The notes beneath the pieces are model-generated. The model had not been told where the DNA came from. It did not search any database and saw only the letters and a program-made list of their open reading frames with translations. 64,000 bases of DNA from a virus, in the IMG/VR virus record IMGVR_UViG_3300037468_000183, positions 40,081 through 104,080 of that record; one strand, written 5' to 3'. This document shows positions 21,054 through 64,000 of the stretch, in pieces; position 1 is the stretch's first letter; each line of letters starts with the position of its first letter. Made by a program: the position numbers and the translations under genes.

Positions 21054-22409
21054 ATGAATCTAAGCGAGTTTCGTCCCGCACGAGTCAACGCAAATCGCCA
21101 CACGGCGCGCGGCATCGGCGCGCTCGAAAAGAGCATCCAGTCAGACGGCTGGATCGGCGCGATGACCACCGCCGCCGATGGCGAGATGATCGCCGGCAGC
21201 GCCCGCATCGAGACGGCGGCGGGCGTGTTCGGCGTGGACGCGGAGCCGGTTGTCATCCACAGCGACGGCAAGCGGCCTATTGTTGTCATTCGCGATGACA
21301 TCCCGAACGCGTCAACGAAGGTCGCGCAACGGCTGGCGCTGGCGGACAATCGCATTCACCAGCTTGACCTGGACTTCGACGTGCAGGTGCTCACCAGCTT
21401 CGATGCCGACGTGCTGGAAGGCTTGTGGACGGGCGACGAAATCAGCGACATGGGCCAGCAGTGGGCGGATGAGCAGAGCCGCAACGCCGAAGACCCCGGC
21501 GCGCAAGTGGACAAGGCGGAGGAACTGCAAGCCAAGTGGCACGTGCAACCCGGCGACCTGTGGGCGATGGGTGACCACCGTCTGCTGTGCGGAGATTGTC
21601 GGGAGCCTGCATCCTGGGTGCGCTTGCTTGCGGGCGTCAAGGCCAATGGCGTTTTCACATCCCCGCCTTATGCCGAGCAGCGCAAGGAGCAATACGGCGG
21701 GACACCAGCCGCCGAATACGTGGCATGGTGGGAAGCGGTGCAGGCCAACGTCAAGGCGCATCTCGCGCCCGATGGTTCGTTCTTCGTGAACATCAAGCCG
21801 CACTGCGCAGACGGCGAGCGTGTGCTGTACGTGTTTGATCTGGTGCTGGCGATGAAGCGGGAGTGGGGCTGGCGTTTCGTGGATGAGTTGTGTTGGACAA
21901 ACCGGGGATTCCCTGGCGAGCCGCAAGACAGATTCCAGAACGCTTTTGAGCCGGTATATCACTTTTCGGATGGAAAAATCAAGTTTCGCCCAAAGGCCGT
22001 TTGGCATTCAAGCGATTCGGTTCCCGTACACAAGGCGGGGCAGAACTTCAGGCAATCCAATCGAGGAAACGGCTTTGAGAGTCCAGACGTAGAAAGCGGG
22101 ATGGCCTACCCTCGCAATGTCCTGGATATCCCAAATGGCAATGGCGGAGATTCGCGACACGCTGCCGCCTTTCCAGTCGCGTTGCCTGACTTCTTCGTGC
22201 GCGCCTACTCGGACGCCGGCGACGTGTGGCTTGATCCGTTCTGCGGCAGTGGCACGACGATTGTCGCCGCGCACAACAACAAGCGGCGGGGATTCGGAAT
22301 CGAGATGCTGCCGAAGTATTGCGCCGTGATCCTGGAACGCATCAGCGGCCTGGGGATTACGCCTGCACTGTTGAGCAATGGGGGAACTGTGGCCGATGGC
22401 GGGCGCTGA
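21054..22409 (+). CDS. ParB-like domain / DNA methyltransferase fusion
   Basis: 451 residues. The N-terminal ParB/Srx-type fold spans about 1-110, with MIAGSARIETA (about 43-53) at the conserved phosphate-binding position. The C-terminal beta-class methylase has TSPPY near 202, DGSFFVNIKP, and DPFCGSGTT near 393 as the SAM motif. Fusions of this type are common in phages and usually lie next to the terminase genes, as here. Probably methylates phage DNA before packaging. Base specificity not determinable. I start at the second Met of the frame. Confidence 0.85.
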   Translation: MNLSEFRPARVNANRHTARGIGALEKSIQSDGWIGAMTTAADGEMIAGSARIETAAGVFGVDAEPVVIHSDGKRPIVVIRDDIPNASTKVAQRLALADNRIHQLDLDFDVQVLTSFDADVLEGLWTGDEISDMGQQWADEQSRNAEDPGAQVDKAEELQAKWHVQPGDLWAMGDHRLLCGDCREPASWVRLLAGVKANGVFTSPPYAEQRKEQYGGTPAAEYVAWWEAVQANVKAHLAPDGSFFVNIKPHCADGERVLYVFDLVLAMKREWGWRFVDELCWTNRGFPGEPQDRFQNAFEPVYHFSDGKIKFRPKAVWHSSDSVPVHKAGQNFRQSNRGNGFESPDVESGMAYPRNVLDIPNGNGGDSRHAAAFPVALPDFFVRAYSDAGDVWLDPFCGSGTTIVAAHNNKRRGFGIEMLPKYCAVILERISGLGITPALLSNGGTVADGGR

Positions 22410-33448: not shown

Positions 33449-33471
33449 TAAGCGGAGTAAGCGGAGTAAGT

Positions 33472-33504: not shown

Positions 33505-33519
33505 GAGGAAGTAGCGCCA

Positions 33520-33912
33520 ATGTCATTCACCTACGGGCGAGCATTGACCACGGATCGCGACCGGCTGCGCTTCTACATCGGGGACGTGACCAGCGGCAGC
33601 GGGCCATTGCCGGGCAGCGTCAACTTCACGGACGAAGAGCTTGACGGGCTGTTGACTACCGAGGGCGCATGGCAGCGCGCCGAAGCCGCGGCTTTCGAGC
33701 GCCTGGCGGCGGCATGGATGGGGCATCCATCATTCTCGGCAGATGGCCTGCAACTGTCACGCTCGGATATCGCAAAAGGTTATGCCGAGAAAGCCGCGGC
33801 TTTGCGCAAAAAGTATGGCTCATCCACGGCGACGAATGTCAGCCGCGTCGGATCGCACGCGGTTACGCGCGTCGATGGTTACTCGGACGATGTGACCAGT
33901 TGGGAGACCTGA
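33520..33912 (+). CDS. Head-tail connector protein
   Basis: 130 residues. DRLRFYIGDVTSG, then FTDEELDGLL and a helical region ending AEKAAALRKKYG, match the pattern of phage head-tail adaptor (gp6/gp15-type) proteins. It would join the portal. The next gene starts inside its stop codon. Confidence 0.7.
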   Translation: MSFTYGRALTTDRDRLRFYIGDVTSGSGPLPGSVNFTDEELDGLLTTEGAWQRAEAAAFERLAAAWMGHPSFSADGLQLSRSDIAKGYAEKAAALRKKYGSSTATNVSRVGSHAVTRVDGYSDDVTSWET

Positions 33913-35015
33913 TGCTGCACGTGTGGGAGCCAGTGCTCGACGGTAATGAGACGGCCTACGTCATGGCGGCCTTGACCGCCCGGAGGTTATCGGCGGATGC
34001 ACACGTATCGCAGTTTGAAGCGGCGTTTGCGGAGTTGGCTGGCTGCGCATGGGGTGTTGCGGTATCGAGTGGGACTACGGCGTTACATCTGATGCTCGCG
34101 GCGCTCGGCATCGGGCCGGGTGATGAGGTCATTCTACCCGCGCTAACTTTTGTCGCCACAGCGAACGCCGTGCGCTACTGCGGCGCCACGCCGGTACTGG
34201 CGGACATTGATCCTGACACATGGTGCATCGATCCTGAGCAAGTGCTCCAATGCAGCGGGCCGCGCACGAAAGCCGTGCTCGCCGTGCATCTCTACGGGCA
34301 GCCGGCTGACATGCTCCAATTGCAAACGTTGTGCGACGCGACGGGTTGGCTCTTGCTCGAAGACGCTGCCGAAGCGCCTGGGGCACGGCTGGCCGGACAA
34401 CCCGTTGGCGGATTCGGCGCAGCAGCGGCGTTCTCGTTCTACGCTAACAAGACCATCACCACCGGCGAAGGCGGCATGGTGACGACTTCCGACGACCGGC
34501 TTGTCGAACGCCTGCGTCTGCTGCGCGGCCAGGGGCAGGATCCAAAACGGCGCTACTGGCATACTGAGGTCGGCTACAACTATCGCATGAGCGAACTGCA
34601 AGGCGCATTGGGACTGGCGCAAGTCGAACAGATCGACAAGCGGCTCTACGAAGCGCGCCTTCTCGCGCGCACGTATCGGGCCTATCCGCAGACGACCTGG
34701 CGCTGGCAGCACAGCTATCGCCGCGCCGAACCGTCCTTCTGGGCCAATGTCGCGCTGTTGCCGGAGGGCGTCAACCGCGATGCCGTGGCACAGGAATTGT
34801 TGGCGCAGGGTATCGAGACGCGCCCGGCCTTCTACCCGTTGCACCTGTTGCCGGCGTATCAGGGCTACGGCGCGCCGGGTGACTATCCGGTGGCGGAGCG
34901 CGTCGGCAGGCAGGGCCTCGTGCTGCCGAGTCACAGCCTGGTCACGGATGTGGATGCGTGGCGCGTATGCGAGACGTTGGAGCGCGTGTGTCAGGCGCAG
35001 GCGGTGCTGGTATGA
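33912..35015 (+). CDS. DegT/DnrJ/EryC1-family PLP aminotransferase
   Basis: 367 residues. All family landmarks are present: AVSSGTTALHLML for the phosphate site, DAAEAPGARL, SFYANKTITTGEGGM with the PLP lysine near residue 180, and HTEVGYNYRMSELQGALGLA. These enzymes transaminate nucleotide-linked keto sugars to make amino sugars. It opens an enzyme cassette inside the phage connector genes and is translationally coupled to both neighbours. The missing partners (RmlA/RmlB-type enzymes) would have to come from the host. Confidence 0.92.
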   Translation: MLHVWEPVLDGNETAYVMAALTARRLSADAHVSQFEAAFAELAGCAWGVAVSSGTTALHLMLAALGIGPGDEVILPALTFVATANAVRYCGATPVLADIDPDTWCIDPEQVLQCSGPRTKAVLAVHLYGQPADMLQLQTLCDATGWLLLEDAAEAPGARLAGQPVGGFGAAAAFSFYANKTITTGEGGMVTTSDDRLVERLRLLRGQGQDPKRRYWHTEVGYNYRMSELQGALGLAQVEQIDKRLYEARLLARTYRAYPQTTWRWQHSYRRAEPSFWANVALLPEGVNRDAVAQELLAQGIETRPAFYPLHLLPAYQGYGAPGDYPVAERVGRQGLVLPSHSLVTDVDAWRVCETLERVCQAQAVLV

Positions 35016-36055
35016 TTGACTTGCGCCTGGGCGACTGCTTGGAGCTTATGCCGACGCTGCCGGATAACAGCGTTGACCTGGTGCTTACCGATCCGCCCTA
35101 CTACAAGGTCAAGACGGAGCCGTGGGACAGGCAATGGGACACCGCAGCGGGCTTCCTGGCGTGGCTTGACAAGTTGCTGGCAGAGTTTCAACGGGTGCTC
35201 AAGCCCAACGGATCGCTATACCTGTTTGCCGCGCCGAAGATGGCGGCGAGAGTGGAAGTGCTGATAGGCGAGCGGTTCAACGTGCTGAACTCGATAACGT
35301 GGATCAAAGAGAATGGTTGGCATCAGCATCAGCACGAAGAAGATTTACGGTCATGGTTCCCGCAAACGGAACGCCTGATCTTTGCTGAGCACTACGGGGC
35401 CGACAACATCGCGAAAGGCGAAGCGGGCTACGTTGCCAAGTGCGACGAATTGCGGGGCTTCATCTTCGAGCCGTTGCGGGCGTATCTGGACGGGGAGCGG
35501 ATACGGGCGGGGCTTTCGGTGCAGGACGTTGCGGAAGCGTGGCGCGTCAAGACCGGCAACGCAGAGCGTACCGGCATGGCTGGACACTGGTTTTCGACGG
35601 TGCAATGGACGCCACCCACAGCAGATAATTACGGATGGCTGCGTGAGACGTTCGCCCGCCTCAACCACGGCGGCGACTACCTGCGGCGGGAGTACGAAGA
35701 CCTGCGGCGGGAGTACGAAGACCTGCGGCGCGAGTACGAAGACCTGCGGCGGCCATTCGCCGTCACCGCCGCTGTGCCGTATACCGATGTCTGGACGTTT
35801 CCGACCGTGGCGCACTATCCCGGCAAGCATCCTTGCGAAAAGCCGCTGCCGCTGCTGAAGCATATCATCACAGCGAGCAGCAAGCCGGGGGCGGTGGTGC
35901 TGGATGCCTGCATGGGCCACGGCAACACCGGCATTGCGGCGCGCGACCTGGGGCGGCGGTTCATCGGCATGGAACAACATGCGCCGTACTTCGCGCGGGC
36001 ACAAGCCCGTCTCGCAACGACGCAATTGCAAATGCCACTGGAGGCGACAGCATGA
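35012..36055 (+). CDS. DNA methyltransferase (DPPY type) with LRREYED repeats
   Basis: 347 residues. LVLTDPPYYKV near residue 28 is motif IV. HPCEKPLPLLKHIITASSKP and VLDACMGHGNTGIAA with FIGMEQHAPYF give the SAM motif at the C-terminus. This order fits beta-type N6-adenine methylases. Three exact-length 21-bp units (35681-35743) encode LRREYED repeats in the middle region. It is inserted between sugar-enzyme genes; ATG overlaps the aminotransferase stop. Confidence 0.88.
   Translation: MIDLRLGDCLELMPTLPDNSVDLVLTDPPYYKVKTEPWDRQWDTAAGFLAWLDKLLAEFQRVLKPNGSLYLFAAPKMAARVEVLIGERFNVLNSITWIKENGWHQHQHEEDLRSWFPQTERLIFAEHYGADNIAKGEAGYVAKCDELRGFIFEPLRAYLDGERIRAGLSVQDVAEAWRVKTGNAERTGMAGHWFSTVQWTPPTADNYGWLRETFARLNHGGDYLRREYEDLRREYEDLRREYEDLRRPFAVTAAVPYTDVWTFPTVAHYPGKHPCEKPLPLLKHIITASSKPGAVVLDACMGHGNTGIAARDLGRRFIGMEQHAPYFARAQARLATTQLQMPLEATA
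35681..35752 (+). repeat. 21-bp tandem repeat (about 3.4 copies) in methyltransferase gene
   Basis: CTGCGGCGGGAGTACGAAGA plus C occurs at 35681, 35702 and 35723 (one G-to-C change in the third), then a partial copy. It preserves the frame and encodes a heptad, so copy number can change without frameshift. Confidence 0.85.
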
Positions 36056-36684
36056 AAGACGCGCTGCTGCTCCAGGTCGGCATCGGCGCTGAGTTTGCGG
36101 CCATGCTCGACGCCAGCCATGCGCGGCATGTGGCGTATTGCGCCGCGCACGGCTTTGACTTCCTAGACATAACGGAGCCGGTCGCGCCGACGCCTCCGAT
36201 GTGGCAGCGGTATTTCTGCATCGCCTGGGCCTTCACGGCGGGTTATCAGTTCGTGGCGGCGTTGGATGCCGATGCGCTGATAGCCAACACCCGCATTGAT
36301 CTGCGCTCGGCCAGCACCAAGCCGCTGGCGATGAAGTGGGCGCAAGCGCCAGGCGGTGAACCACCCGGCTACAATGCCGGTGCGATATTCGCCAGGGCCG
36401 CGAGTGCTCCGCTATTCGATGAGATGACGCTGCGTGCGCCAGGGCCGGGCGTCAAGCAAGATGGGCCGTGGTGGTTGTTGCAAGACGGCGAACAACGCAT
36501 TCTGAACGAACTGCTCAGACAGGAGCGCTGGGCCATGCAAACCGAGCCGCTAGGCATGTTCTGGAATTGCGTGCTCGGTATCGAAGATGTGCCACAGCCG
36601 GTTGTCGTGGCGTGGCACGGCATCGAAGACACCGGCGAGCGCCTGCGGCTGCTGCGCCAATGGTTGCAGAGGAATAGCGCATGA
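36052..36684 (+). CDS. Glycosyltransferase-like protein (DxD)
   Basis: 210 residues. FVAALDADALIAN near residue 65-77 gives a DxD-type metal and nucleotide-sugar site, and GYNAGAIFARAAS follows, as in small GT34/GT8-like galactosyl or glucosyl transferases. The acceptor is unknown. Lies in the sugar cassette; ATG overlaps the methylase stop. Confidence 0.7.
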   Translation: MKDALLLQVGIGAEFAAMLDASHARHVAYCAAHGFDFLDITEPVAPTPPMWQRYFCIAWAFTAGYQFVAALDADALIANTRIDLRSASTKPLAMKWAQAPGGEPPGYNAGAIFARAASAPLFDEMTLRAPGPGVKQDGPWWLLQDGEQRILNELLRQERWAMQTEPLGMFWNCVLGIEDVPQPVVVAWHGIEDTGERLRLLRQWLQRNSA

Positions 36685-37349
36685 CCCTGCCGGCATTTGG
36701 CGATAGGCACATCACGGCGTATACGCTGCTGACGATTGAGCAATTAGCGCCTGATTCCGTCAACAAGCGGGCGCTGCTCAAATATCTGGGGGCCGGATTG
36801 CGTGCTAACACGCCCTGCACTGAGTTGCGCACGATCCTGCGGACATTGGCACACCAACGCCAACCGCGGAGTTACCTGGAAATCGGCGTGCGGCGGGGGT
36901 GGAGCTTGGCGCAAGTGGTCGCTGAGTGTCCACAGGTAGACGTGACGGCGTGCGACTCCTGGGTAGTGGGTTACGGCGGGGTCGCTAATCCCGGTGCGCA
37001 GTTCGTGCGTGACGAATTGGCAAAGGTCGCTCCGCAATGGCAGGGCCAGCTAACCTTTCTCGAAGGCTCGTCGCGCGACTTTCTGCCTGAGCTGGTGCGC
37101 CAGGGGTGTCGTTACGATCTGATTACGATTGACGGCGACCACACGGTAGCAGGCACACGCGCCGACTTGCGCGATGGTCTGGCGCTGCTGACCTGGGGTG
37201 GGGCGTTGGTGATGGATGACCTGATAGATCATGCCGATGGCGGCGGTTCGCTGCTGCAAACGTGGCGCGCTGTGCAGGCGGAATTTCCCGGCTTCGTGTG
37301 GCACGAGTTGGCGGGCCTGGTTCCGGTGGGGGTGGCGGAGCACGCATGA
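36681..37349 (+). CDS. SAM-dependent methyltransferase (class I)
   Basis: 222 residues. YLEIGVRRGWSLAQV (about 64-78) is motif I, VTACDSW the acidic strand, and YDLITIDGDHTVAGT the motif-IV-like strand followed by LLTWGGALVMDDLI. It resembles the Methyltransf_24/cephalosporin-hydroxylase-like group, often sugar O-methyltransferases next to glycosyltransferases. A role in capping or decorating the glycan is inferred. Confidence 0.78.
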   Translation: MTLPAFGDRHITAYTLLTIEQLAPDSVNKRALLKYLGAGLRANTPCTELRTILRTLAHQRQPRSYLEIGVRRGWSLAQVVAECPQVDVTACDSWVVGYGGVANPGAQFVRDELAKVAPQWQGQLTFLEGSSRDFLPELVRQGCRYDLITIDGDHTVAGTRADLRDGLALLTWGGALVMDDLIDHADGGGSLLQTWRAVQAEFPGFVWHELAGLVPVGVAEHA

Positions 37350-38068
37350 AGACGTATCCACAAGTTTGCATGTTGTCCCTGTGGAGAAACGACGCGGCCC
37401 GCGACCTGGAATTTCGGGCACGTCACCTGCTCAGCAAGTCTTTTCCCGCGCTACGTTGGGTATGGGTGGTTGGAGACTCCGACGACGACACCTATCAGCG
37501 GCTGCTGGCCATCATCAACGCAGTCAGGCCGTGGCGGCATGTCGATCTGATTCGCCACACGACCGGCATACCCGGCAATGATCCGCCGCAACGTCGCGAG
37601 CGCCTCTCGGCATCGGCCAACTTCGGCTTGTCGCTGCTGAGCGCCGAAGATGATTATTTTCTGATGCACGAATCAGACTTGCGCAGTCCGCCGAATCTGG
37701 TTGAGCGTTTTCTGGATCACGCCGCGGCGGGGCGCTGTCCGGTGGCGGGCTGGCCGATTCTGCCGATTAGCCAGACGCAGGCGTTGTTTTACGACATCTG
37801 GGCCTATCGCAAAGACGGCAGCATGTTTACGAATGCGCCGCCCTACCACGTGTGCTATAATGCCGCTACGCCATTCGAGGTTGACAGCTTCGGCTCGTGC
37901 TGGCTGGCGGATGCGGAGGACATGCGGCAGGTGGGCATTCGCTTCGCGGAGTTGGCAGTGTTGGACATTTGCGCACAGTTGCGGGAGCTAGGTCGGCACC
38001 TGTGGGTCGATCCCAAGCTGACGATTGTCCAGCCCGCGGCATTATGGGAGTGCCATCCGGTAACATGA
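37346..38068 (+). CDS. Glycosyltransferase-like protein (GT2/Anp1-like)
   Basis: 240 residues. Rossmann-like N-terminus (RWVWVVGDSDDDTYQRLLAI), then LLSAEDDYFLMHESDLRSPP (about 91-110), which resembles the acidic donor site of Anp1/GT62-like or GT2 enzymes, and VDSFGSCWLADAEDM near 190. Sugar donor and acceptor unknown. Coupled to its neighbours. Confidence 0.65.
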   Translation: MKTYPQVCMLSLWRNDAARDLEFRARHLLSKSFPALRWVWVVGDSDDDTYQRLLAIINAVRPWRHVDLIRHTTGIPGNDPPQRRERLSASANFGLSLLSAEDDYFLMHESDLRSPPNLVERFLDHAAAGRCPVAGWPILPISQTQALFYDIWAYRKDGSMFTNAPPYHVCYNAATPFEVDSFGSCWLADAEDMRQVGIRFAELAVLDICAQLRELGRHLWVDPKLTIVQPAALWECHPVT

Positions 38069-38382
38069 GAAGTTTGCGGGCGCGTTCTATCCTGGTATTA
38101 GATCGCACGCCCGGCGAGTTGTACACGCTCCTGGGCCACTGTCGCAGCGGTGTGTATTGGAGCAACGAGCTTGCACGAGTGCGGGCGGAAAGGGCTAAAC
38201 AGGATGCCGATATTCGAGCCAGTGGTGATCCTGAAACCGGAAATGGTACAGATCGCGGAGAGCGCCAGGGTGGACAGCTTCGTGAAAATCGAAGGCGGCC
38301 AGGGCGTAACGATTGGCGAGTATACGCACATTGCCTCGTTCTGCCATGTCAACGTGGGCGGCGGCAAGGTGACCATCGGTAA
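38065..38382 (+). CDS. Doubtful small ORF in the sugar cassette
   Basis: A 105-residue frame whose ATG overlaps the glycosyltransferase stop exactly as in its neighbours, filling a 135-base gap. The first 46 residues (RARSILVLDRTPGELYTLLG) look coding. The rest overlaps the acyltransferase in another frame and is Arg/Gly-rich. It may be a short gene, or its stop may have been lost. Confidence 0.3.
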   Translation: MRSLRARSILVLDRTPGELYTLLGHCRSGVYWSNELARVRAERAKQDADIRASGDPETGNGTDRGERQGGQLRENRRRPGRNDWRVYAHCLVLPCQRGRRQGDHR

Positions 38383-38680
38383 GCATGTCGGGCTGGCCAG
38401 CGGCGCAAAGGTGTTGGGTGGCAGCGCCTCGCCACGCGGACTGTCCATGTCTGCGGCTAGTCCGCCTGAGATGCAGGTGATTACACATCGGCATACGGTG
38501 ATCGGGGACTACTGTCTGATCGGTACGAATGCGATTGTTCGGGAAGGGGTGCAGATGGGCGAGGGGTCAGTACTGGCCGCCGGTAGTGTCGCGACGCACG
38601 ACATCCCGCCGTGGACGATTGCGGCAGGTGAACCGGCTAAAGTCATCAAGCCGCGAGAGCACGACGCCGCGACCAGGTAG
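38204..38680 (+). CDS. Hexapeptide-repeat (left-handed beta-helix) acyltransferase
   Basis: 158 residues made of I/V-G-x-x-x-x turns: VQIAESARVDSFVKIEGG, VTIGEYTHIASFCHV, VTIGKHVGLASGAKV, then HTVIGDYCLIGTNAIV and VLAAGSVATHDIPPWTIAAG. This is the WbbJ/FdtC/QdtC type that acetylates sugars. A DegT aminotransferase and an LbetaH acyltransferase in one operon is the classic pair for N-acylated amino sugars. Confidence 0.85.
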   Translation: MPIFEPVVILKPEMVQIAESARVDSFVKIEGGQGVTIGEYTHIASFCHVNVGGGKVTIGKHVGLASGAKVLGGSASPRGLSMSAASPPEMQVITHRHTVIGDYCLIGTNAIVREGVQMGEGSVLAAGSVATHDIPPWTIAAGEPAKVIKPREHDAATR

Positions 38681-38696
38681 GGTGGTAGAGGACGCA

Positions 38697-38891
38697 ATGC
38701 CCAACGATCTCGGCACACTCGAACTCGATCCGAACGTCGTCTTGCGCGGCGCAGTGCTGCATATCCGGCTGGTCAACGTGCGCGCCTTGCGCATCCGGTT
38801 GCTGCTCACGGCTTGGCTGCTGTGTCTGATCGGCATTCTGCTGGATTGCTACATCGTATTTGACAAAGAGGACGCGGAGGAGGGCGCATGA
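38697..38891 (+). CDS. Small membrane protein
   Basis: 64 residues. A polar N-terminus (LGTLELDPNVVLRGAVLH) and one membrane helix (LLLTAWLLCLIGILLDCYIV, about 37-56), then an acidic tail. Follows the acyltransferase. Role unknown. Confidence 0.5.
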   Translation: MPNDLGTLELDPNVVLRGAVLHIRLVNVRALRIRLLLTAWLLCLIGILLDCYIVFDKEDAEEGA

Positions 38892-39091
38892 GGCTACTGC
38901 TATTCCGAATCGACCTACAGCCGCAGTTTCAAGGGCTGGACTGGGAAGCCGTGCGCTTCGAGCATTGTACCGCCGAAGCTCAGAACGCAGTGCGCGCTGT
39001 GGGGATGGGGCAGTACTGGGAGATGGACGATTACGTTGACGGCGCGTATACCGACATTCGATCCGATGACCAGCACAAGACGGGTGCCTAG
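38888..39091 (+). CDS. Hypothetical small protein
   Basis: 67 residues, ATG overlapping the previous stop. Aromatic and acidic (LDWEAVRFEHCTAEAQNAVR). No motif recognised. Lies between the sugar cassette and the neck genes. Confidence 0.45.
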   Translation: MRLLLFRIDLQPQFQGLDWEAVRFEHCTAEAQNAVRAVGMGQYWEMDDYVDGAYTDIRSDDQHKTGA

Positions 39092-39094
39092 TCG

Positions 39095-39475
39095 ATGACC
39101 AGCTTTATCAGCGCCGCAGAACTGACACAGATGCGCGCCGACGCCGCACGCACGTTGCTGGACGCAACCTGCACGCTGTTGACGCCGACTGCAAATGTCA
39201 ATGGCATTGGCGAGACAACGTTGACTTGGGGCACAGTTGGCGTTGCGGTGCCGTGTCGTCTGCGGCCGGCTGGTCTCCAGGCGCAGATGGTGCAGCTTGG
39301 CGGCCAGCCGCAAACGTCCGCTGACTGGCAATTGACGCTGCCGTTTGGCACGGTCACGGTTGCGCCAGGTGACCGCGTGGTGATCGACGGCGCAACCTTC
39401 GAGGTCAAACAAAGCATCGAGGAAGAAACGTGGCGCACGGCTGTGCGGGTGAACATGCTCCGCATTGAGGTTTGA
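39095..39475 (+). CDS. Head-closure / neck protein
   Basis: 126 residues. A short N-terminal helix, then a beta-rich domain (LDATCTLLTPTANVNGIGET; GTVTVAPGDRVVIDGATFEV) matching head-closure proteins of the DUF6093 type. Gene order (after connector, before HK97 gp10) supports this. Overlaps the next gene by 11 bases. Confidence 0.65.
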   Translation: MTSFISAAELTQMRADAARTLLDATCTLLTPTANVNGIGETTLTWGTVGVAVPCRLRPAGLQAQMVQLGGQPQTSADWQLTLPFGTVTVAPGDRVVIDGATFEVKQSIEEETWRTAVRVNMLRIEV

Positions 39476-39857
39476 CGTGTCTATCGTGACAACGGTGGTT
39501 TTCGACAACTTGCCAGCGCTGAACAAGCAGGCGACAGCGATGGCGGTGCAGGCGGTGAAGAAAGCCGCTTTCGATATCGAGGAGCACGCGAAGACGATTG
39601 TGCCTGTGGATACCGGCTTCCTGAAGAACTCGATTGCGACACAGGTCGGGGCCGATGGGTTGCACAGTCCACGGGGGTCATCTTCGCATCAGCACTCACC
39701 AGCAAACGACTTGACGGCCTACGTTGGGGCACACGCGGAGTATGCGGCGAATGTCGAGTACGGTCTCGGCCAACGACCGCAGCCGTACTTGCGGCCCGCA
39801 GTCGAGCGGGTGCGACCGGCGTTTATCGAGGCGATGAAGCAGATCGCGAAGATGTGA
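39465..39857 (+). CDS. HK97 gp10-family tail-neck protein
   Basis: 130 residues. VKKAAFDIEEHAKTIVPVDT, then GFLKNSIATQ, the AEYAANVEYG motif and QPYLRPAVERVRPAFI are all standard for the HK97 gp10 family. It helps join head and tail. Confidence 0.85.
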   Translation: MRFDVSIVTTVVFDNLPALNKQATAMAVQAVKKAAFDIEEHAKTIVPVDTGFLKNSIATQVGADGLHSPRGSSSHQHSPANDLTAYVGAHAEYAANVEYGLGQRPQPYLRPAVERVRPAFIEAMKQIAKM

Positions 39858-39901
39858 TAGGGGCGATGTAGCACTAGCAATAGAAAGAGAGAACGCAACA
39901 A

Positions 39902-41131
39902 ATGCGGATACTTTTTCAGGCAAATGCGCCGTGGTGCGCAACGGGATATGGTGTGCAAGGCAAGCACCTCGTGCCGCGCCTTCAGGCGCTCGGCCACGAT
40001 CTGGCGTACTTCGCCTTCTACGGGCTACAGAATGGCGTGCTGAACATTTCCGGCGTGCCAATCTACCCGATGGGGACACAGCCCTGGGGCCAAGATGTCG
40101 TCAGCGCGCATATGGCGCACTTCAAGGCCGATCTGCTTATCTCGCTGCTCGACGTGTGGGTGCTCGACGGCTACGGCGCGAAGGCCAAAGAGGGCGGCTG
40201 GCTGTGGTGTCCCTGGACGCCGGTGGATTGCGAGCCGGTGCCACCGCTGGTACTCAAGCGGCTCGAAGGTGCGCACACGGTCATTCCATACGCCCGGCAC
40301 GGCGAAGCGGAGTTTCGCAAGGCCGGCATACTCAACACGCGCTATATCCCGCATGGCGTGGTGACTGAGACCTTCAAGCCAATGGATCAACACGACTGCC
40401 GTCAGGCGCTAGGTCTGCCGCAAAACGTGTTCATCATCGGCATGGTCGCAGCGAACAAGGGCTTTCCGGCGCGCAAGTGTTTTGCGGAGCAGTTGACGGC
40501 CTTCGCAGAATTCAAGAAGAAGGTGCCAGATGCCATCTTCTATCTGCACACGATCCGGGGCCAGGAGCATGGCGGCATCAATTTTGCCGAATTACTGTGG
40601 CGACTCGGTTTGACCGAGGGCAAGGACGTGATCTTCAGCGACCAGTACACGTACATTCTCGGCTGGCCCGAAGAACGCATGGCGCAGCTTTACAATTGCT
40701 TCGATGTGCTATCACTGGCATCGATGGGCGAGGGCTTCGGCATCCCGCTAATCGAGGCGCAAGCCTGCGGGATTCCGGTGGTTTCCTGCGACAATACCGC
40801 CATGACCGAGTTGACTTTTGCGGGCGTGTGCATCCCGAAGGCGCAGCAATATCCCTGGTGGACGCCGTTGGCTTCCTGGCAGATGATTCCGCAGATCGGC
40901 GCGATTCTGGACGCCTATGTCGATCTGTACGAACAACTCACGCGCACGCCGGGGCGTCGTCAAGAGTTGGCACAGGTCGCCCGCGCGGGCGCGTTGGCTT
41001 ACGATTGGGATCGCGTCGTGGCTGACTTCTGGAAGCCATTCCTGGAAGGTCTTCAGGCTGAGAAAGACGCCAAGCGCGTCGCGCCGGACGGGGCCGCGGA
41101 GGTGCGGGAGTATGAAGAACAACGTTCTTGA
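39902..41131 (+). CDS. Glycosyltransferase family 4-like
   Basis: 409 residues with the GT-B layout. N-terminal NAPWCATGYGVQGKHLVPRL, a central IPHGVVTETFKP, and the donor-site signature SMGEGFGIPLIEAQACGIPV carrying the E-x7-E pair. It sits alone between two tail-connector genes, so a second sugar-enzyme insertion in the late operon. Likely transfers a sugar from a nucleotide donor onto virion protein, DNA or surface glycan. Confidence 0.88.
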   Translation: MRILFQANAPWCATGYGVQGKHLVPRLQALGHDLAYFAFYGLQNGVLNISGVPIYPMGTQPWGQDVVSAHMAHFKADLLISLLDVWVLDGYGAKAKEGGWLWCPWTPVDCEPVPPLVLKRLEGAHTVIPYARHGEAEFRKAGILNTRYIPHGVVTETFKPMDQHDCRQALGLPQNVFIIGMVAANKGFPARKCFAEQLTAFAEFKKKVPDAIFYLHTIRGQEHGGINFAELLWRLGLTEGKDVIFSDQYTYILGWPEERMAQLYNCFDVLSLASMGEGFGIPLIEAQACGIPVVSCDNTAMTELTFAGVCIPKAQQYPWWTPLASWQMIPQIGAILDAYVDLYEQLTRTPGRRQELAQVARAGALAYDWDRVVADFWKPFLEGLQAEKDAKRVAPDGAAEVREYEEQRS

Positions 41132-54926: not shown

Positions 54927-55565
54927 ATGATCGGTAAATGGATAACTGGCACAGGCGGTCTGAATCTCGAAATCGTGCCTTACGAGACGCGCCCGGATGC
55001 CGCGCGTTGGCAGGGCGGGCCGGTGTATCGCGTCAAGGACATATTCTCGACGCGCAACGGCTCATGGGAAACCAGTACCGATTTTGGCGGCATCGACCAA
55101 TGGGCGAAGGATGCGTACTGGTCGGGTGCCAAGTTCGACGGGGCAGGCGGCGACCACAACTTTTTCATCCTGGCGCTGGATGAAGCGGGCCAGCCGATCC
55201 CCGGTAAGGGCCTGCTGTTCTGGCAAGGCGCAATGACCGCTGATTTCACTCCGAGCGACCCGCGCACGGCGAAACATGACGGCTCTGAGAATATCCCGGT
55301 ATTCGGCTCGTATGCGCCGGATCGCGACGAGCATGGTTCGTGGAGCGGCGCGGTACTGGGTAAGAGCGATGTGCTGATGGGCGTCGGGATGCCGTGGAAT
55401 CATCACGTCTCGACGTTCCTGGTGCTACAAGCGGTTGCTGATTCCCAGCCCCCGCCACGACCGCCCGAACCTCTACCGGATGCCGACTTCCAGAAGACCG
55501 TATTGGCGCATCTCGACGCCATTTATTTGCGGCTCGATGACATGGCGAAGCACTTGGGCGCATGA
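54927..55565 (+). CDS. Hypothetical protein, possible carbohydrate-binding or tail-tip
   Basis: 212 residues. Beta-rich with Trp (KWITGTGGLNLEIVPYETRP; DYWSGAKFDGAGGDHNFF-like segments) and a helical Pro-rich C-terminus ending in a heptad. Resembles secreted sugar-binding domains. No catalytic motif seen, so I do not call it a lysin. Confidence 0.45.
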   Translation: MIGKWITGTGGLNLEIVPYETRPDAARWQGGPVYRVKDIFSTRNGSWETSTDFGGIDQWAKDAYWSGAKFDGAGGDHNFFILALDEAGQPIPGKGLLFWQGAMTADFTPSDPRTAKHDGSENIPVFGSYAPDRDEHGSWSGAVLGKSDVLMGVGMPWNHHVSTFLVLQAVADSQPPPRPPEPLPDADFQKTVLAHLDAIYLRLDDMAKHLGA

Positions 55566-55591
55566 AAACATGTGAGGGGCGCGCTAAAATA

Positions 55592-57958
55592 ATGGTCAAA
55601 CTCGTGACGGTCATCCTAGTGGCCTCTTTGCTGGCTGGCTGTATCGCGCCGCCATATACCAGCGTTGGCAACTATCGCGCCACGTTGCCGCTGCAAATCC
55701 CCCGGCAAATGCCTGCTATGCCACGTGCGCCGCAGACGGCGACCTGGACATACGCGCTGCCTGCGAAGGCGTGTCCCTGGTCAGCCACGGACAGCAATTG
55801 CCATTATAGTTCGCCCGCGCTCGCTGATCTCAATCATACTGGTACACTGGATATTATTGTCGCGACAAATAACGGCCATGTCGTGGCAATCGATCATGCC
55901 GGTAAGCTGCTTTGGGATGTGGATGTGGCACCCTTCTTCGGCATGGCGGCGGGTACTCAGGAAATCGCTTCATCTCCAGCCGTGGGCGATATCGATGCCG
56001 ATGGTGAGTTGGAGATCGCGGTAGGCGTTGGTAGCGTCTATCCTTCCGTCTGCACCACGGGCGGTGTGATCGTCCTGGACAATCAAGGCCGAATCAAGCC
56101 TGGCTGGCCGCAACTGGCCGACGATTGGAGCCTGCCGCTCGGTTGTCGCGATACCGTTTTCAGCACGCCTGCGCTAGGCGATCTCGACAAGGACGGCAAG
56201 CTGGAAATCGTGGTTGGCAGTTTCGACATGAAAATCTATGCCTGGCGCGCGGACGGCACACTCATGCCGGGTTTCCCGCCCGATGGCGCTCATGCCGCGC
56301 GCTTTCCGACTGAGCCGGAACTACAAGGCCGTCTCAGTGATACCATCTGGTCATCGCCCGCGCTGGGCGACTTAGACCGTGATGGCTTCCTGGAAATCGT
56401 CATCGGCAGCGACGAGGGCAACCGACCGCCGGGCTATAGCTGCCCTTATCGCCTGCCCCCGAATTGGCGGCCCGACTACTGCGGCGGCGCGCTCTATGTC
56501 CTGGATCGCTTTGGGCGCTATCTGCCGGGCTTCCCGAAGTACGTTCTCGATATCATCGCATCCTCGCCCGCGCTGGTGGATTTGGATGGCGACGGCTGGC
56601 TGAATATCGTGGTGGGTACTGGCCCGTTCTACTACGATAACAGCCCCAACTATCCCGTCAGTGGCTTTCGGGTCTACGCCTGGAATCATCGCGGCAATGA
56701 TCTACCGGGCTGGGAGGGCGGTAAGCTCGTTGGCGGCCCAACACCTGCTTCCCCCAGCATTGGCGATCTGGACGGTGATGGCGAACCGGAAATAGTCGGG
56801 GCAACCTATGATCCAGAGCGTAAGCTGTACGCCTGGCATGTTGACGGTGCGCTATTGCCCGGCTTCCCGATGGCACCAACCTTCAACGGCGTGACTTACG
56901 CCAGCTTCGACACGCCCGCGAATTTCATCCTGGCGGATTACAATGGCGACGGCAAGCAGGAAATCTTTTTCAGCACCGGCTGGCTGGTAACAGTCGTGGA
57001 CGGTACTGGACAGCAGCTTACCAACACCGGCTATGGCAGCCCATTACCATCCTACATGACAAACGGCTCGCTGATCAATAATCCCGCCATTGGTGACCTG
57101 CATCAAGACGGCAGACTGGCGTTGATTGCCACTAACAGCCAAGTCACTGTTTGGGATTTACCGCGTGCTGACCGGGCAGCCGCCTGGCCGCTCTTTCGCA
57201 ACAACGTATCACGCACAGGCAGCCTGGGCGCAATCATACCTCTGCCCATCATTCCCCATAGCGCACGCGGGCTTGTGGAACGCTTCTATCTGCATGTCCT
57301 GCGGCGCGCACCGGATCAGACGGGTATGGATACCTGGACTAATGCGCTACTGGATCGGGCCATGAGCGGGGCTGATCTGGCGCGTGCGTTTGTCCTCAGT
57401 TCGGAGTTTGGCGACAGCAACACCACCAATGACGATTTCCTAACCATCATATATCGCGCATTCTTCGACCGCGTGCCGGATGCTGACGGTTACAACGTCT
57501 GGCTCAGTGCACTCAACAATGGACTACCGCGCGTCGAAATGCTGGACGGCTTTATCCGTTCGCGCGAATTTGCTGAACTATGCGATAGGTACGGCATCCG
57601 CGCCAACACGACGCACCAGGACAAGCTACGCACCTACATAATGCGCCTGTATCGCGAAGTCTTGGGCCGCGCCCCAGATGCCGCGGGGTTGGCGATGTGG
57701 GCCACGGGCAACCATACGGGCAGCGAGATGGCGCGCGGCTTCGTGCTCAGCCAGGAGTTCAGCAAACGCGCGTTCAGCGACGAGCAATTCGTGACCATGC
57801 TGTATCGCGCGCTCCTTAATCGCGTGCCGGATAGTGGCGGCTTTGACTTCTGGCTCGCTAATTTGCAGAGCGGCATGAGTCGAGATCGCGTGTTGGAGAG
57901 CTTTATCGGTTCGGCGGAATTTGCCAAACTATGCGAGAGCTACGGTATCGCACCATAA
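55592..57958 (+). CDS. Lipoprotein with FG-GAP/VCBS propeller and DUF4214 repeats
   Basis: 788 residues when started at MVKL (55592); an upstream ATG (55562) overlaps the previous stop. A lipoprotein signal ends LLAGC with the modified Cys at 17. At least seven blades carry D-x-D-x-D-G calcium loops (DIDADGELEIAVG, DLDKDGKLEIVVG, DLDRDGFLEIVIG), an integrin-like beta-propeller. The last 230 residues contain DUF4214 units (LVERFYLHVLRRAPDQTGMD; FLTIIYRAFFDRVPDADGYN). Expected at the host outer surface. Could block receptors after infection. Confidence 0.8.
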   Translation: MVKLVTVILVASLLAGCIAPPYTSVGNYRATLPLQIPRQMPAMPRAPQTATWTYALPAKACPWSATDSNCHYSSPALADLNHTGTLDIIVATNNGHVVAIDHAGKLLWDVDVAPFFGMAAGTQEIASSPAVGDIDADGELEIAVGVGSVYPSVCTTGGVIVLDNQGRIKPGWPQLADDWSLPLGCRDTVFSTPALGDLDKDGKLEIVVGSFDMKIYAWRADGTLMPGFPPDGAHAARFPTEPELQGRLSDTIWSSPALGDLDRDGFLEIVIGSDEGNRPPGYSCPYRLPPNWRPDYCGGALYVLDRFGRYLPGFPKYVLDIIASSPALVDLDGDGWLNIVVGTGPFYYDNSPNYPVSGFRVYAWNHRGNDLPGWEGGKLVGGPTPASPSIGDLDGDGEPEIVGATYDPERKLYAWHVDGALLPGFPMAPTFNGVTYASFDTPANFILADYNGDGKQEIFFSTGWLVTVVDGTGQQLTNTGYGSPLPSYMTNGSLINNPAIGDLHQDGRLALIATNSQVTVWDLPRADRAAAWPLFRNNVSRTGSLGAIIPLPIIPHSARGLVERFYLHVLRRAPDQTGMDTWTNALLDRAMSGADLARAFVLSSEFGDSNTTNDDFLTIIYRAFFDRVPDADGYNVWLSALNNGLPRVEMLDGFIRSREFAELCDRYGIRANTTHQDKLRTYIMRLYREVLGRAPDAAGLAMWATGNHTGSEMARGFVLSQEFSKRAFSDEQFVTMLYRALLNRVPDSGGFDFWLANLQSGMSRDRVLESFIGSAEFAKLCESYGIAP

Positions 57959-57976: not shown

Positions 57977-58010
57977 CACAAAGCCCGCTGCGTGTGCAAC
58001 GGGCTTTGTG
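57977..58010. terminator. Bidirectional terminator between convergent operons
   Basis: CACAAAGCCCG (57977-57987) and CGGGCTTTGTG (58000-58010) pair perfectly over 11 bp with a 12-base loop. A-rich 5' and T-rich 3' flanks allow use on both strands. It ends the late operon and the leftward right-arm operon. Its last two bases are shared with the parS site. Confidence 0.85.
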
Positions 58011-58024
58011 TTTCACGTGAAACA
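58009..58024. other. parS site 1 (perfect)
   Basis: TGTTTCACGTGAAACA, the 16-bp palindrome that fits the chromosomal ParB binding consensus TGTTNCACGTGAAACA exactly. Intergenic, next to the terminator. No ParA/ParB pair is encoded in the window. Confidence 0.85.
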
Positions 58025-58050
58025 TTCGCGGCGCTCAGCCGTCATGCGCG

Positions 58051-58272
58051 TCAAGCGGCATCTGCACGGCGCGCGGCTCCGGCTCGCGGCAGGCCATCGC
58101 TCTGACCGTTCCAGTCATCGAACAGGATCGAACAGAACGAGTTGGCGCGATTGCAAACCTTGCACGTGACGCCATCGCTCAGGTAGTAGCCAACATTCGT
58201 TTTCACGTCCGCGACTTCGCGTCCGCAAGGCGTCCTGCCTGTAGGTTGCCAGCGATGTACTATGTTGCTCAT
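58051..58272 (-). CDS. Small Cys-rich protein
   Basis: 73 residues. CGREVADVKTNVGYYLSDGV then CKVCNRANSFC gives four cysteines able to bind zinc. The C-terminus is a Gly/Ala/Arg tail. It is the last gene of the right-arm leftward operon before the terminator. Function unknown. Confidence 0.5.
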   Translation of the reverse strand: MSNIVHRWQPTGRTPCGREVADVKTNVGYYLSDGVTCKVCNRANSFCSILFDDWNGQSDGLPRAGAARRADAA

Positions 58273-58277
58273 GTTGC

Positions 58278-58448
58278 TCAGTCCTCCAGCGCCACCGGCG
58301 CGCAGGTCGCCGCGTCCACGAGCAGATCATCGCCGCCATTCTCCGTGCGGATGTACAAGCGTTGCCCGTCCGCATGGCCGCAGATGACGACGGCGGGATG
58401 ACCGTCGTGCAGGATGCGGTCGCCGGGCAGATAGATGTTACGACTCAT
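58278..58448 (-). CDS. Hypothetical small protein
   Basis: 56 residues from the ATG at 58448. Beta-rich (GDRILHDGHPAVVICGHADG; LYIRTENGGDDLLVDAATC), like a small SH3-type barrel. Overlaps the upstream gene by 11 bases. Function unknown. Confidence 0.45.
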   Translation of the reverse strand: MSRNIYLPGDRILHDGHPAVVICGHADGQRLYIRTENGGDDLLVDAATCAPVALED

Positions 58449-58869
58449 CGGATGCCTCCAGAGAACAGATGATATCCAAGTACTCATCCCATGTCCAGCC
58501 GTGGGCGCGGCGTCGAGCGTCGAGCTTGGCGCGGGTCGCCGGCTGGATGCCGCCGATGCCGACTGTGCTGCGCTTGCGTGGCCGCCTGGCATTCCATTTG
58601 TCAAGCCGCTCCCACAAACTGCAGCCAGACAAGTCGGTCTCTCTGCTACGCTCTATCAAGTACTTGCCAAACTCAGCGTCGATTCTCGCAATCCTACGGA
58701 AACCATTGGCGCGGAATTGCTCGCCGTCACTATCGACAACGAAGTAGCGGATGCGCTTCTCCTCAACTCCCTCGACGTGATCCAGGGAGCCGACGCACCA
58801 ATGATCCTGCGGATCGCCATCACTCCACTTGGTAGCTAGGACGTATTCACCTTTTTGTATGTCAGACAT
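58438..58869 (-). CDS. Hypothetical protein with duplicated C-terminal module
   Basis: 143 residues. The N-terminal part (YVLATKWSDGDPQDHWCVGS) is unique. The C-terminal about 35 residues, TVGIGGIQPATRAKLDARRR onward, are almost identical to the end of 59143-59664. The shared DNA is about 111 bp with about 100 matching bases. The module may be a DNA-binding or targeting helix. Confidence 0.55.
   Translation of the reverse strand: MSDIQKGEYVLATKWSDGDPQDHWCVGSLDHVEGVEEKRIRYFVVDSDGEQFRANGFRRIARIDAEFGKYLIERSRETDLSGCSLWERLDKWNARRPRKRSTVGIGGIQPATRAKLDARRRAHGWTWDEYLDIICSLEASDES
58468..58578. repeat. 111-bp duplicated module, copy A
   Basis: By eye 100 of 111 bases match copy B at 59179-59289. It encodes the C-terminus of 58438-58869. 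Differences are mostly silent, so the protein module is under selection. Confidence 0.8.
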
Positions 58870-58923
58870 CACATTCCTCCAGTAGCTTCTGCAATTGCCC
58901 ACGGCGCACCTGTTTGTCGATGC

Positions 58924-59142
58924 TCAGTCGTGGCCGGTAGCACGGCGGGGACGTTTTGCGCGCCGGCTTTCGTTATAATTTCCGACAAAAACCAGCTTCT
59001 TCCGGCGCATGATGAACGGCCCACGCGCCCGCGTGCCGCAGCGCAGACAAGTAACGCCAATATGCGACACGTCTTCCTTGTATCCGCAGTCGCACATGCC
59101 AAACGGACCGCCAAGCAAAAAGTGAATCATCTTCCCTCCCAT
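58924..59142 (-). CDS. Small zinc-ribbon protein
   Basis: 72 residues. CDCGYKEDVSHIGVTCLRCG has paired cysteines of a zinc ribbon; the rest is basic (MRRKKLVFVGNYNESRRAKR). A second ATG at 59130 after GGGAGGGAAG is possible. Probably nucleic-acid binding. Confidence 0.55.
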   Translation of the reverse strand: MGGKMIHFLLGGPFGMCDCGYKEDVSHIGVTCLRCGTRARGPFIMRRKKLVFVGNYNESRRAKRPRRATGHD

Positions 59143-59664
59143 TCATCCCGCGTCATCGAATGCCTCCTCAAGTGATGCGATGATTTCTAGGTACTCGTCC
59201 CATGTCCAGCCGTGGGCGCGGCGACGGGCGTCGAGCTTGGCGCGTGTCGCGGGCTGGATGCCGCCAATGCCGACTGTGGTGCGCTGGCGTGGCTGTGGCG
59301 CGGGCAATGTTTCACGTGAAACATGCGGCGCGTCCGTGACGCGCTCGCCGGGGGCCAGGATCACGACCGCCGCGATGGGCGCGTTGTGGCAGTCGCCGGC
59401 GATGTGGATGCCGTGGCAGGAGGGACAGGGCGTGAGCATGAACGGTTCTGGCAACGGGGACAGGCCCAGGTGCTTCCGCAAGTCGTTCTCGCTTGCCAGT
59501 GTCAACGCTCCGGGGCGTCTGCGCAGCACGTCCGAAAGCGTCCCAATGGTATTCCGGGGCAGTCCGAGAGTGTCCGCCAGGATGCGCAGAGAGGCACCGC
59601 ATTTTCGCTCAGACAATGCGGACACGGTAGACTCATCTGTGTAATGGAGTGCCCTAGTGTACAT
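59143..59664 (-). CDS. HTH-type protein carrying parS in its coding sequence
   Basis: 173 residues. The N-terminus (CGASLRILADTLGLPRNTIG) looks like a helix-turn-helix. The middle has CPSCHGIHIAGDCHNAP. The duplicated TVGIGGIQPATRAKLDARRR module ends the protein. The parS palindrome at 59308-59323 is read as HVSRET in this frame, so the site is kept within a gene. Confidence 0.55.
   Translation of the reverse strand: MYTRALHYTDESTVSALSERKCGASLRILADTLGLPRNTIGTLSDVLRRRPGALTLASENDLRKHLGLSPLPEPFMLTPCPSCHGIHIAGDCHNAPIAAVVILAPGERVTDAPHVSRETLPAPQPRQRTTVGIGGIQPATRAKLDARRRAHGWTWDEYLEIIASLEEAFDDAG
59179..59289. repeat. 111-bp duplicated module, copy B
   Basis: Partner of 58468-58578, encoding the C-terminus of 59143-59664. 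It ends about 19 bases before the second parS site. Confidence 0.8.
59308..59323. other. parS site 2 (perfect)
   Basis: TGTTTCACGTGAAACA, identical to the site at 58009-58024 and 1299 bp away. It extends one more base pair each side (ATGTTTCACGTGAAACAT). Located inside the HTH-type gene. Confidence 0.85.
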
Positions 59665-59735
59665 TTAGCCTTGCCTCTTGTAGTGTGATTCTACGGGTAC
59701 TGTGCCAGGGTGCGAAATCTGGCGCTACGGACGTT

Positions 59736-60221
59736 TTAGCTTTCTGGAGAATGATGATTGTCCGCGTACTCCGCATCGATCTTCCTCGCTGACCAGACGC
59801 GTAGACGTGTCAAGAACCTTGCCCATTCATCCGGCGTGTAGGTTCGCCATTCTTTATCTGGCTGCGGATGCAATCGCATGACTCTGAACTCCGCAATATC
59901 CCACCACTGCTTATCAGCGGGATTCCTTTCATCTGCCAATCTGTAAAGCAGCACGTAGGCTGGCAGTATCGGATTGCATCGCTGCGCAAGGCGTGTGGTC
60001 ACGGTTGCGGGTTTGTAGTCCTGCCCAACATCCCTCGCGGTTTCGATCAGTGCGAGTGGTTCTTTTGTCGAATCGTCATACTCGACATAAAGCGATGCGT
60101 CAAGATCAATCATCGCCAGGACTTGCGCGGTTTCGATGCCAACAAAGCGCCGTGTTGATTCGCGACGATGCCATGCTGAGTATGATCTATCGCGCGTGTT
60201 GTAGATTTCCTCTTGAGGCAT
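59736..60221 (-). CDS. Hypothetical protein, possible PD-(D/E)xK-like nuclease
   Basis: 161 residues from the ATG at 60221 after GGGAGGTGTCGTA. YVEYDDSTKEPLALIETARD places an acidic residue and E-x-A at the spacing of a PD-(D/E)xK core, but a catalytic Lys is not evident. CNPILPAYVLLYRLADERNP follows. Adjacent to a ParB-methyltransferase, so it may be linked to DNA modification. Confidence 0.5.
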   Translation of the reverse strand: MPQEEIYNTRDRSYSAWHRRESTRRFVGIETAQVLAMIDLDASLYVEYDDSTKEPLALIETARDVGQDYKPATVTTRLAQRCNPILPAYVLLYRLADERNPADKQWWDIAEFRVMRLHPQPDKEWRTYTPDEWARFLTRLRVWSARKIDAEYADNHHSPES

Positions 60222-61522
60222 TACGACACCTCCCAAACCACAATCTCCCTGGTAAGTACCAGGCATTTGCGGTTCGCTTTCGCCCATATCACCATCTGCG
60301 CATTGGCTTGCTGGCTCTCGTAGGGGACTGAGTAGCGCATGTCAACCGGGAGCTTGACCATTCTTAGCATGTCGCCAACGTGATCCGTGTAACTCTTGTT
60401 ATCTGCCTTCCACTGCGTTGGTTGGATGATCAGCGCGATGTAGGCCGGTTTCTCTCGCACGGATGTTTTCAGTTTTGACGCAAACGCCTTGATGATGCCG
60501 GATAGCGCGCCGTTGAACTGCTCAATCGTGATATTCGCTAGGTCGGTAGCATCCTTGCTGTACTGGCCTTCGGCTTGCTTCCAGTATGGCGGATCAAGAT
60601 AGACTAAACCTACGTCCTTCCAGCGCGGCACACTTGGCAAGATAATCGCACCGTCCGCAGCAAGCAGATCGTGCTGCCTGATATCTTCGCGCTCGACAAT
60701 CGGCTTGCGATCACTGGCGTAGTAACGGCGCATACGTCTCTTGCATAACTCAATCGTGCTACCGCCTCCCGCAAAGGGATCGACAACCACGTCGAATGGT
60801 TCGGTGTACAGGTAAAGTAGATTGTCAAGCCATTGGATCTCCGAGTTGCCGAAGTGCTTGACGCCGTTGGTCTTTTCCTGTTGCTTCCAGATGTTGTAGA
60901 TTGGCGGCTTCCATTCCGGCTCGGCATAGGTCGCGAGCGTTTGCGCAGGTTTCGTCAGTTTTTCCAGTTCTGGAAATTCTGACCAAATCTCGCTAATCGC
61001 GCCATCGCTCAAATCCTCACTTAGCGCGATTTCCTCTCGTGTCCAGCACGCCAGCCACTTGGCGAAAATGCGCTTGTTCCTGGCGTCCTTCGTGTCCTTG
61101 TCGATACGCGATAACCAAGACTCCACGGTTGACAATGACACGCTCAGGATGCGCGCGAGGTCTTTCTTTTTGTCTGCGCGGGCACGCTCGGCTGTGCTGT
61201 TGTAAATCCGGCGCGCCATGTCCTGCTTGTCCTCCTGGCTGAGTTGTAAGCCATGGGCGGCATTGCGCTCGATTGCCAATTCCAGCAGATGCGCGTCGCT
61301 TGTCGTCTGGGTGATGATAACGGAGATGGTTGGAGAATTGGCTTTCTTGTGCGCTGTCCAGCGATGCCAACCGTCGATCAATATGTCGTTTTGGTTGATC
61401 TCGATTGGCGGAAGTACAGTCAGATCGTCGGCGTACTTTTGGACGGTTTCGGGACTCTTGGCGATGCGCGGATACAGGTCTTCGCGCCAGATGATATCTT
61501 GCGTGTTACGTGATTCTGACAT
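60221..61522 (-). CDS. ParB-like domain / DNA methyltransferase fusion
   Basis: 433 residues. ParB/Srx-type N-terminus with ILIDGWHRWTAHKKA (about 47-61). A helical region including ARILSVSLSTVESWLSR (about 123-139) resembles the HTH of ParB/KorB proteins. The methylase core has VVDPFAGGGSTIELC (about 247-260) and VYLDPPYWKQAEGQY (about 308-322), an N6-adenine type. Together with 21054-22409 this is the second such fusion in the window. GGAGGAAACGTC precedes the ATG. Confidence 0.85.
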   Translation of the reverse strand: MSESRNTQDIIWREDLYPRIAKSPETVQKYADDLTVLPPIEINQNDILIDGWHRWTAHKKANSPTISVIITQTTSDAHLLELAIERNAAHGLQLSQEDKQDMARRIYNSTAERARADKKKDLARILSVSLSTVESWLSRIDKDTKDARNKRIFAKWLACWTREEIALSEDLSDGAISEIWSEFPELEKLTKPAQTLATYAEPEWKPPIYNIWKQQEKTNGVKHFGNSEIQWLDNLLYLYTEPFDVVVDPFAGGGSTIELCKRRMRRYYASDRKPIVEREDIRQHDLLAADGAIILPSVPRWKDVGLVYLDPPYWKQAEGQYSKDATDLANITIEQFNGALSGIIKAFASKLKTSVREKPAYIALIIQPTQWKADNKSYTDHVGDMLRMVKLPVDMRYSVPYESQQANAQMVIWAKANRKCLVLTREIVVWEVS

Positions 61523-63414: not shown

Positions 63415-64000
63415 TGCGTTGTGTCCTCTCTGTCCCGAATCCAATACTCCCAAACGCCATCACGCTTCCTGCGAGCCAGTGTGCCTTTCTTCTCCATCCT
63501 CGTCAGACAGTTGCTCGCCAACGAGCCGGGAAGATCGAGCACAGCGTTGACCTCCCGGAATGTCAGCGGTGTCGATGCCGTGACCAGCAGAGCCACCACC
63601 TTTTCAATGTGCTTCTGCTTGCGACCGACCGGGTTGGCCGGCACAGGCGAAGGCACGGCGTTACCCGTTGCCAGCCAAGTCGTGCGTTCCTTGCAGCGTT
63701 CGGGACGTGCGAGACCCACGGCAACGATACGGCTCTGATTGCGCAGCAAACGCCACGCACCCAGCAGCAACGACTTCTCTCTGTCCACGCCAACGCAACA
63801 CTCGGAGAACATCGCTGGACGATCCAGGAGGAGCAGGTTTGCCAGCAGCGTTTCAGCGACCGCGGCAATCTGTACGCGCCTTTGCTCGGCCACGGCTTGC
63901 GCGTCTGCCTCGTCAACCGCTGCACGGCAGACAACCGCCTCCCGCGCGATGTTGGCGCGCTGGCATTCTGCGTAGTACGGACAGGCAGGCCGTTTGGTCT
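63411..64000 (-). CDS. Cys-motif / winged-helix regulator, partial at window edge
   Basis: The frame runs off the right edge. Its visible start carries CPYYAECQ and a further Cys 12 residues on, a redox or zinc motif. The C-terminal half has an HTH-type pattern (HIEKVVALLVTASTPLTFRE; GSLASNCLTRMEKKGTLARR). A GTG at 63893 is an internal start candidate, but coding signal continues upstream. Probable DNA-binding regulator. Confidence 0.55.
   Translation of the reverse strand, partial: TKRPACPYYAECQRANIAREAVVCRAAVDEADAQAVAEQRRVQIAAVAETLLANLLLLDRPAMFSECCVGVDREKSLLLGAWRLLRNQSRIVAVGLARPERCKERTTWLATGNAVPSPVPANPVGRKQKHIEKVVALLVTASTPLTFREVNAVLDLPGSLASNCLTRMEKKGTLARRKRDGVWEYWIRDREDTTQ

Follow-up and report, generated by a model that had tools for sequence, protein, structure and literature searches.

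Paired chromosomal-type parS sites on a tailed phage genome with no recognised parAB genes, and their possible use of host ParB

The window, by which we mean the entire 64-kb stretch of DNA under analysis, runs from base 40081 to base 104080 of an IMG/VR viral record of 104,080 bp. It carries phage terminase, portal, head and tape-measure genes together with a DnaB-like helicase and a PriCT-2 primase. A GIY-YIG homing endonuclease with NUMOD3 motifs is located at window positions 10716-11396, a protein with the effector-associated domain EAD7, unusual for a phage, at 19220-19717, and a DegT aminotransferase, methyltransferases and a glycosyltransferase are present as cargo between the head and tail genes (33714-41131). 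Beyond the end of the late genes lie two identical copies of a 16-mer resembling parS, the DNA tag used by bacteria to segregate their own chromosomes. A scan of the window recovered both copies exactly where the earlier note had placed them, one intergenic and the other read as HVSRET within a gene, and found no further site with up to three mismatches. The features of the locus are collected in the table.

Table. Features at and around the two parS-type sites (window coordinates)
Feature	Position	Strand	Remarks
Last late-arm gene, FG-GAP + DUF4214 protein	55562..57958	+	marks the late-arm end beside site 1
Hairpin, perfect 13-bp stem, 12-nt loop	57975..58012	+	ends in TTTGTGTTT; read from sequence
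parS-type site 1, TGTTTCACGTGAAACA	58009..58024	.	exact match; intergenic, between the rightward late-arm end and the leftward early arm
ORF holding site 2, 173 aa	59143..59664	-	N-terminal part variable; CPSCHGIHIAGDCH...HVSRETLPAP part conserved
parS-type site 2, TGTTTCACGTGAAACA	59308..59323	.	exact match; within minus-strand ORF, read HVSRET
N6_N4 DNA methylase with fused ParB/Noc-like N-terminal and HTH domains	60221..61522	-	considered as site binder
Second ParB-like (N-terminal) fusion to N6_N4 methylase	21054..22409	+	considered as site binder

Both 16-mers fit the 16-bp palindrome TGTTNCACGTGAAACA described as the consensus of chromosomal parS (PMC7022226, PMC10197239). The number of exact copies expected in 64 kb lies between 4e-6 (independent bases) and 1e-5 (first-order Markov), which agrees with the earlier judgement that a perfect pair would be very unlikely to arise by chance. 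Two of the features that mark chromosomal-type parS, a consensus palindrome and an occurrence beyond chance, are found here. A scan of the full 104,080-bp record, as the earlier note had proposed, returned four perfect copies, the additional two lying outside the window at contig positions 34535 and 36680, and no copies with one to three mismatches.

The four exact sites form two homologous pairs, the surroundings of which have diverged. The final 127 bases of the contig (103954-104080; window 63874-64000) are an exact repeat of 39,647-39,773 and constitute its only 127-bp repeat, a length that suggests an assembler k-mer junction (k=127). The 64,307 bp from 39,774 to the contig end close on themselves through an intact gene, so that the window corresponds to approximately one whole genome (B); closure through the 127-mer would fit an assembler junction and does not in itself prove a circle in vivo. 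The comparison suggests that contig bases 1-39,773 represent a related genome (A), or a tandem copy, and A and B share blocks of 86-94% identity in the same order. Both genomes have a long rightward late arm that runs up to a leftward early arm, and the two sites of each lie just beyond the point where the arms meet: they follow the last late gene by 51 and 1,350 bp in B, and by 827 and 2,972 bp in A. The copy at contig 34535 is the counterpart of site 1, at the same position, and that at contig 36680 is the counterpart of site 2, with the frame and the peptide (HVSRET) also kept in the homologous ORF. No base of the 16-mers differs between A and B. The bases closest to them are conserved as well, however, and the 16-mers are not clearly more conserved than these; taken alone, the identity is therefore weak evidence of selection.

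The last late-arm gene belongs to a block of ~86% nucleotide identity with contig 30289-33711, and the hairpin that follows it is likely the late-arm terminator. This hairpin, which was missing from the scanner list because its loop exceeds the scanner limit of 8, shares its last 4 bases with site 1. No Pfam or PHROG match was obtained for the ORF around site 2; its N-terminal part appears HTH-like by eye and is unlike between genomes A and B, the 16-mer within the ORF being identical. Window 58000-59700 and contig 34500-36850 are a mosaic of short duplicated cassettes, and the A/B homology begins exactly at site 1, as if the site were a recombination boundary.

With regard to partition genes, ParA (PF13614) had no matches in the 104,080-bp record, the control genomes being positive in 14 of 14 cases, and the only trace of a canonical ParB in the record was one weak, sub-threshold match to ParB_N (PF02195) inside the methylase at 60221-61522. 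A six-frame look at the record found no ParB-type recognition motif in any other reading frame. The earlier statement that the window lacks ParA and canonical ParB thus holds for the whole record, and a parAB operon elsewhere in it, which according to the earlier note would make this an ordinary partition system, was looked for and not found. Since parA and parB are absent, this is not a self-contained ParABS system; what is present is parS without its own parAB, as in the elements of the phi29 and SGI1 type that use ParB in trans. The tyrosine (PF00589) and serine (PF00239) recombinase families likewise had no matches in the record, which would weakly favour a plasmid prophage.

Alternatively, a protein of the phage might bind the sites, either a ParB-methylase fusion, as was contemplated earlier, or the product of the site-2 ORF, which may be an HTH protein. 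The predicted structure of the methylase at 60221-61522 (mean pLDDT 80) does match the Noc and ParB N-domain and HTH structures. The residues with which ParB reads parS are G170, K171, S172, R173 and N178 (PMC7383237), and pairing by eye, through alignment of the recognition helices, places S, V, S, L and S at these five positions of the methylase, the helix of which reads SVSLSTVES as compared to the GKSR and N178 of ParB; the column equivalent to R173 is variable across 25 methylase relatives. The exact site occurs in none of the 28 records that carry methylase relatives, and a single-mismatch form in only one of them. With its relatives' records lacking the exact site and its helix lacking the parS-contacting residues, this methylase was rejected as the binder, and binding by it is unlikely; no ParB-type recognition helix was found in the fusion at 21054-22409. 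As for the site-2 ORF, A and B have different N-terminal parts despite the identical 16-mer. We therefore regard binding by any of these phage proteins as improbable, and the earlier suggestion concerning the fusions as disfavoured. The window's two fusions are of the same kind as the phage fusions of a ParB-CTPase fold to an N6_N4 methylase described in PMC12704722, which are not partition proteins and had no link to parA genes in that survey; those of the window are without the parS-reading residues.

The site is far from confined to this record. The exact 16-mer is present in 286 of 50,697 INPHARED phage records, whereas three composition-matched control palindromes, one of them with the CACGTG core kept, gave no matches in the same records at the same threshold. 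IMG/VR yielded at least 120 stretches each for the parS 16-mer and for a control palindrome; among the matches listed, two or more sites are found in 17 of 120 parS stretches against 0 of 120 controls (p = 8e-6), and terminase genes in 37 of 120 against 10 of 120. ParA and ParB_N were found in none of these 17 multi-site records (among the matches listed), several of which carry terminase, portal, baseplate or tail genes, and ParB_N was above the cut-off in 0 of 14 named site-bearing phages, one of which has a near-perfect site. Both related and unrelated phages carry the site without ParAB, far more often than the control palindromes occur. It might still be argued that the sites in the window arose by chance, or are neutral sequence moved by recombination at a mosaic cassette boundary, in keeping with the duplicated cassettes around them and with a homology that starts at site 1 itself; given four exact copies where about 1e-5 would be expected, and the strong enrichment over control palindromes across unrelated phages, we consider this highly improbable.

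The INPHARED matches include phi29-like phages (B103, Goe1, BSP11 and Chedec 11), Herelleviridae, microviruses, and Gordonia, Arthrobacter and Microbacterium phages. The Microviridae records have one exact site each, and the ~6-kb, Zot-bearing bajarodino viruses (PQ006097-PQ006178) have 5-6; both these viruses and the microviruses are far too small for ParAB to be encoded. In one clade of environmental phages among the matches listed (L013, L025, L033, L035, L048, L072, L089, L094, L099, L103, L107, L117, L125 and L126), a perfect site precedes TerL by 33-151 bp, in flanks that for the most part are unrelated. The TerL of this clade links it to Pelagibacter phage HTVC027P, and in one member, L103, another ParB-like palindrome is found next to the parS. 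Three related environmental phages (L023, L050 and L059) have 3-5 perfect sites within ~0.7-0.9 kb upstream of or near the terminase. Parts of the genome that likely enter or leave first are also represented: the site lies in the terminal repeat of the T5-like Vibrio phage phi 3 (L376) and, with one mismatch in the 19-mer, in the DTR of Pseudomonas phage phiPsa267 (L375), and Gordonia phage PatrickStar (L373) belongs with these two as a phage with parS-type sites in terminal repeats or near genome ends. The matches listed, which are samples of phages that are not independent, include no enterobacterial phages, and this fits E. coli having no ParB (PMC7383237). The unannotated "Listeria phage LM" records may contain host DNA.

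We regard it as reasonably probable that chromosomal-type parS without ParAB is a widespread and convergent phage feature, by which host ParB and SMC are borrowed for positioning, for deferment or for vertical transmission, the window being one case. Such a reading covers tailed lytic and temperate phages, phi29-like phages, microviruses and small Zot-bearing viruses, with hosts that have a chromosomal ParB. In the literature searched, parS in phages lacking ParAB came up only in citations of the phi29 work, which does not prove novelty, and the phenomenon would appear to be larger than has been noticed.

For the window itself, we think it on the whole probable, if not strongly so, that both 16-mers act as true parS sites of the chromosomal type, recruiting host ParB in trans, and that they serve the tethering or partition of unintegrated phage DNA. 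Recruitment of host ParB, which the earlier note had put forward, is the best-supported reading, with no parAB in the record, a ParAB-less recurrence above controls and the rival methylase disfavoured. As ParB proteins throughout the family keep their specificity for parS (PMC7383237), we infer that ParB would bind these sites. Host ParB-CTP clamps would load at the site pair and spread over the late-arm end, and host ParA and SMC would then handle the resulting complex, such that the unintegrated phage DNA might be tethered to the nucleoid or to the origin region and, when lysis is delayed, be shared out to daughter cells in a carrier or plasmid-like state. The most likely benefit of such sites would be that a genome which has not integrated is tethered or partitioned while lysis is delayed. 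Since many database phages with parS belong to lytic types, stable plasmid partition cannot be its role in every one of them.

Host ParB might also bind the sites to another end, for instance silencing or delaying phage genes through spreading and SMC loading, or placing the genome for replication, packaging or dormancy. According to PMC9437464, phi29 is reported to employ host Spo0J (ParB) for spore entrapment while Spo0A holds the lytic cycle (after Meijer et al. 2005), and PMC11790492 describes long-range gene silencing by the plasmid ParB-family protein KorB; the sites of lytic-type phages near TerL or inside terminal repeats, among the matches listed, would also suit a use other than segregation. 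The sites described here, however, are located at the end of both arms, away from any recognised key-gene promoter, and we consider a purpose of this kind unlikely. A further scenario is that of a decoy, in which the sites titrate ParB off the host origin and upset chromosome segregation or division to the benefit of the phage. The parS copies of SGI1 do destabilise its IncC helper (PMC10954446), and phage sites would multiply with phage replication, but two sites per genome are few unless the copy number is high, and we attach little probability to it.

If host ParB is indeed recruited, the phage would be classed among the parS-bearing elements that rely on ParB supplied in trans, for which precedents are already known in phi29 with Spo0J and in SGI1 with the IncC ParABS. 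Like this phage, phi29 has no partition genes of its own, and it is described as using host ParB (PMC9437464); it is, however, an 18-kb virulent podovirus of a spore-forming host, whereas the phage described here is tailed, has a 64-kb genome and a tape-measure protein, and possibly infects Chloroflexota, and spore entrapment is therefore not implied here. SGI1, an integrative mobilizable element, likewise has two parS-like sites and no parAB, and hijacks the ParAB supplied in trans by IncC plasmids (PMC10954446), but its sites imitate the parS of a plasmid, which it displaces, whereas the site described here is the chromosomal consensus. The extrachromosomal mycobacterial prophages RedRock and Miko are unintegrated genomes partitioned via ParB and parS (PMC7157519), as we propose for this phage; in their case parAB is encoded by the prophage itself and parS consists of 8-bp direct repeats, neither of which is present in this phage.

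Should host ParB load on incoming phage DNA, the segregation machinery would be a phage host factor outside sporulation, and it would offer phages without integrase or parAB a route to persist in dividing cells. A change of 16 bp could then serve to trace the phage DNA or to break its inheritance, and the database pattern makes the idea testable in cultured pairs (for example Lactobacillus Lpa804, Roseobacter DSS3P8 or Microbacterium phages).

The tail-end protein (window 54927-55565) has no relative in IMG/VR, the Gp3-like protein has no match among phages, and the portal has no relative in the genome contig collection and three distant matches only, all actinobacterial, in the plasmid collection. 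The 13 IMG/VR records with portal relatives are all <25 kb and have no site, but are uninformative on this point because none covers a whole genome. Among GTDB genomes the best match of the DegT aminotransferase is in a Chloroflexota MAG (47%), and the portal has a distant 33% match in 1 of 400 genomes of Chloroflexota, the only phylum scanned; that the host belongs to this phylum is our guess. One exact 16-mer is present in each of the three Chloroflexota genomes examined, in one of them ~4 kb from genes with parA and parB signatures, and the phylum therefore uses this parS.
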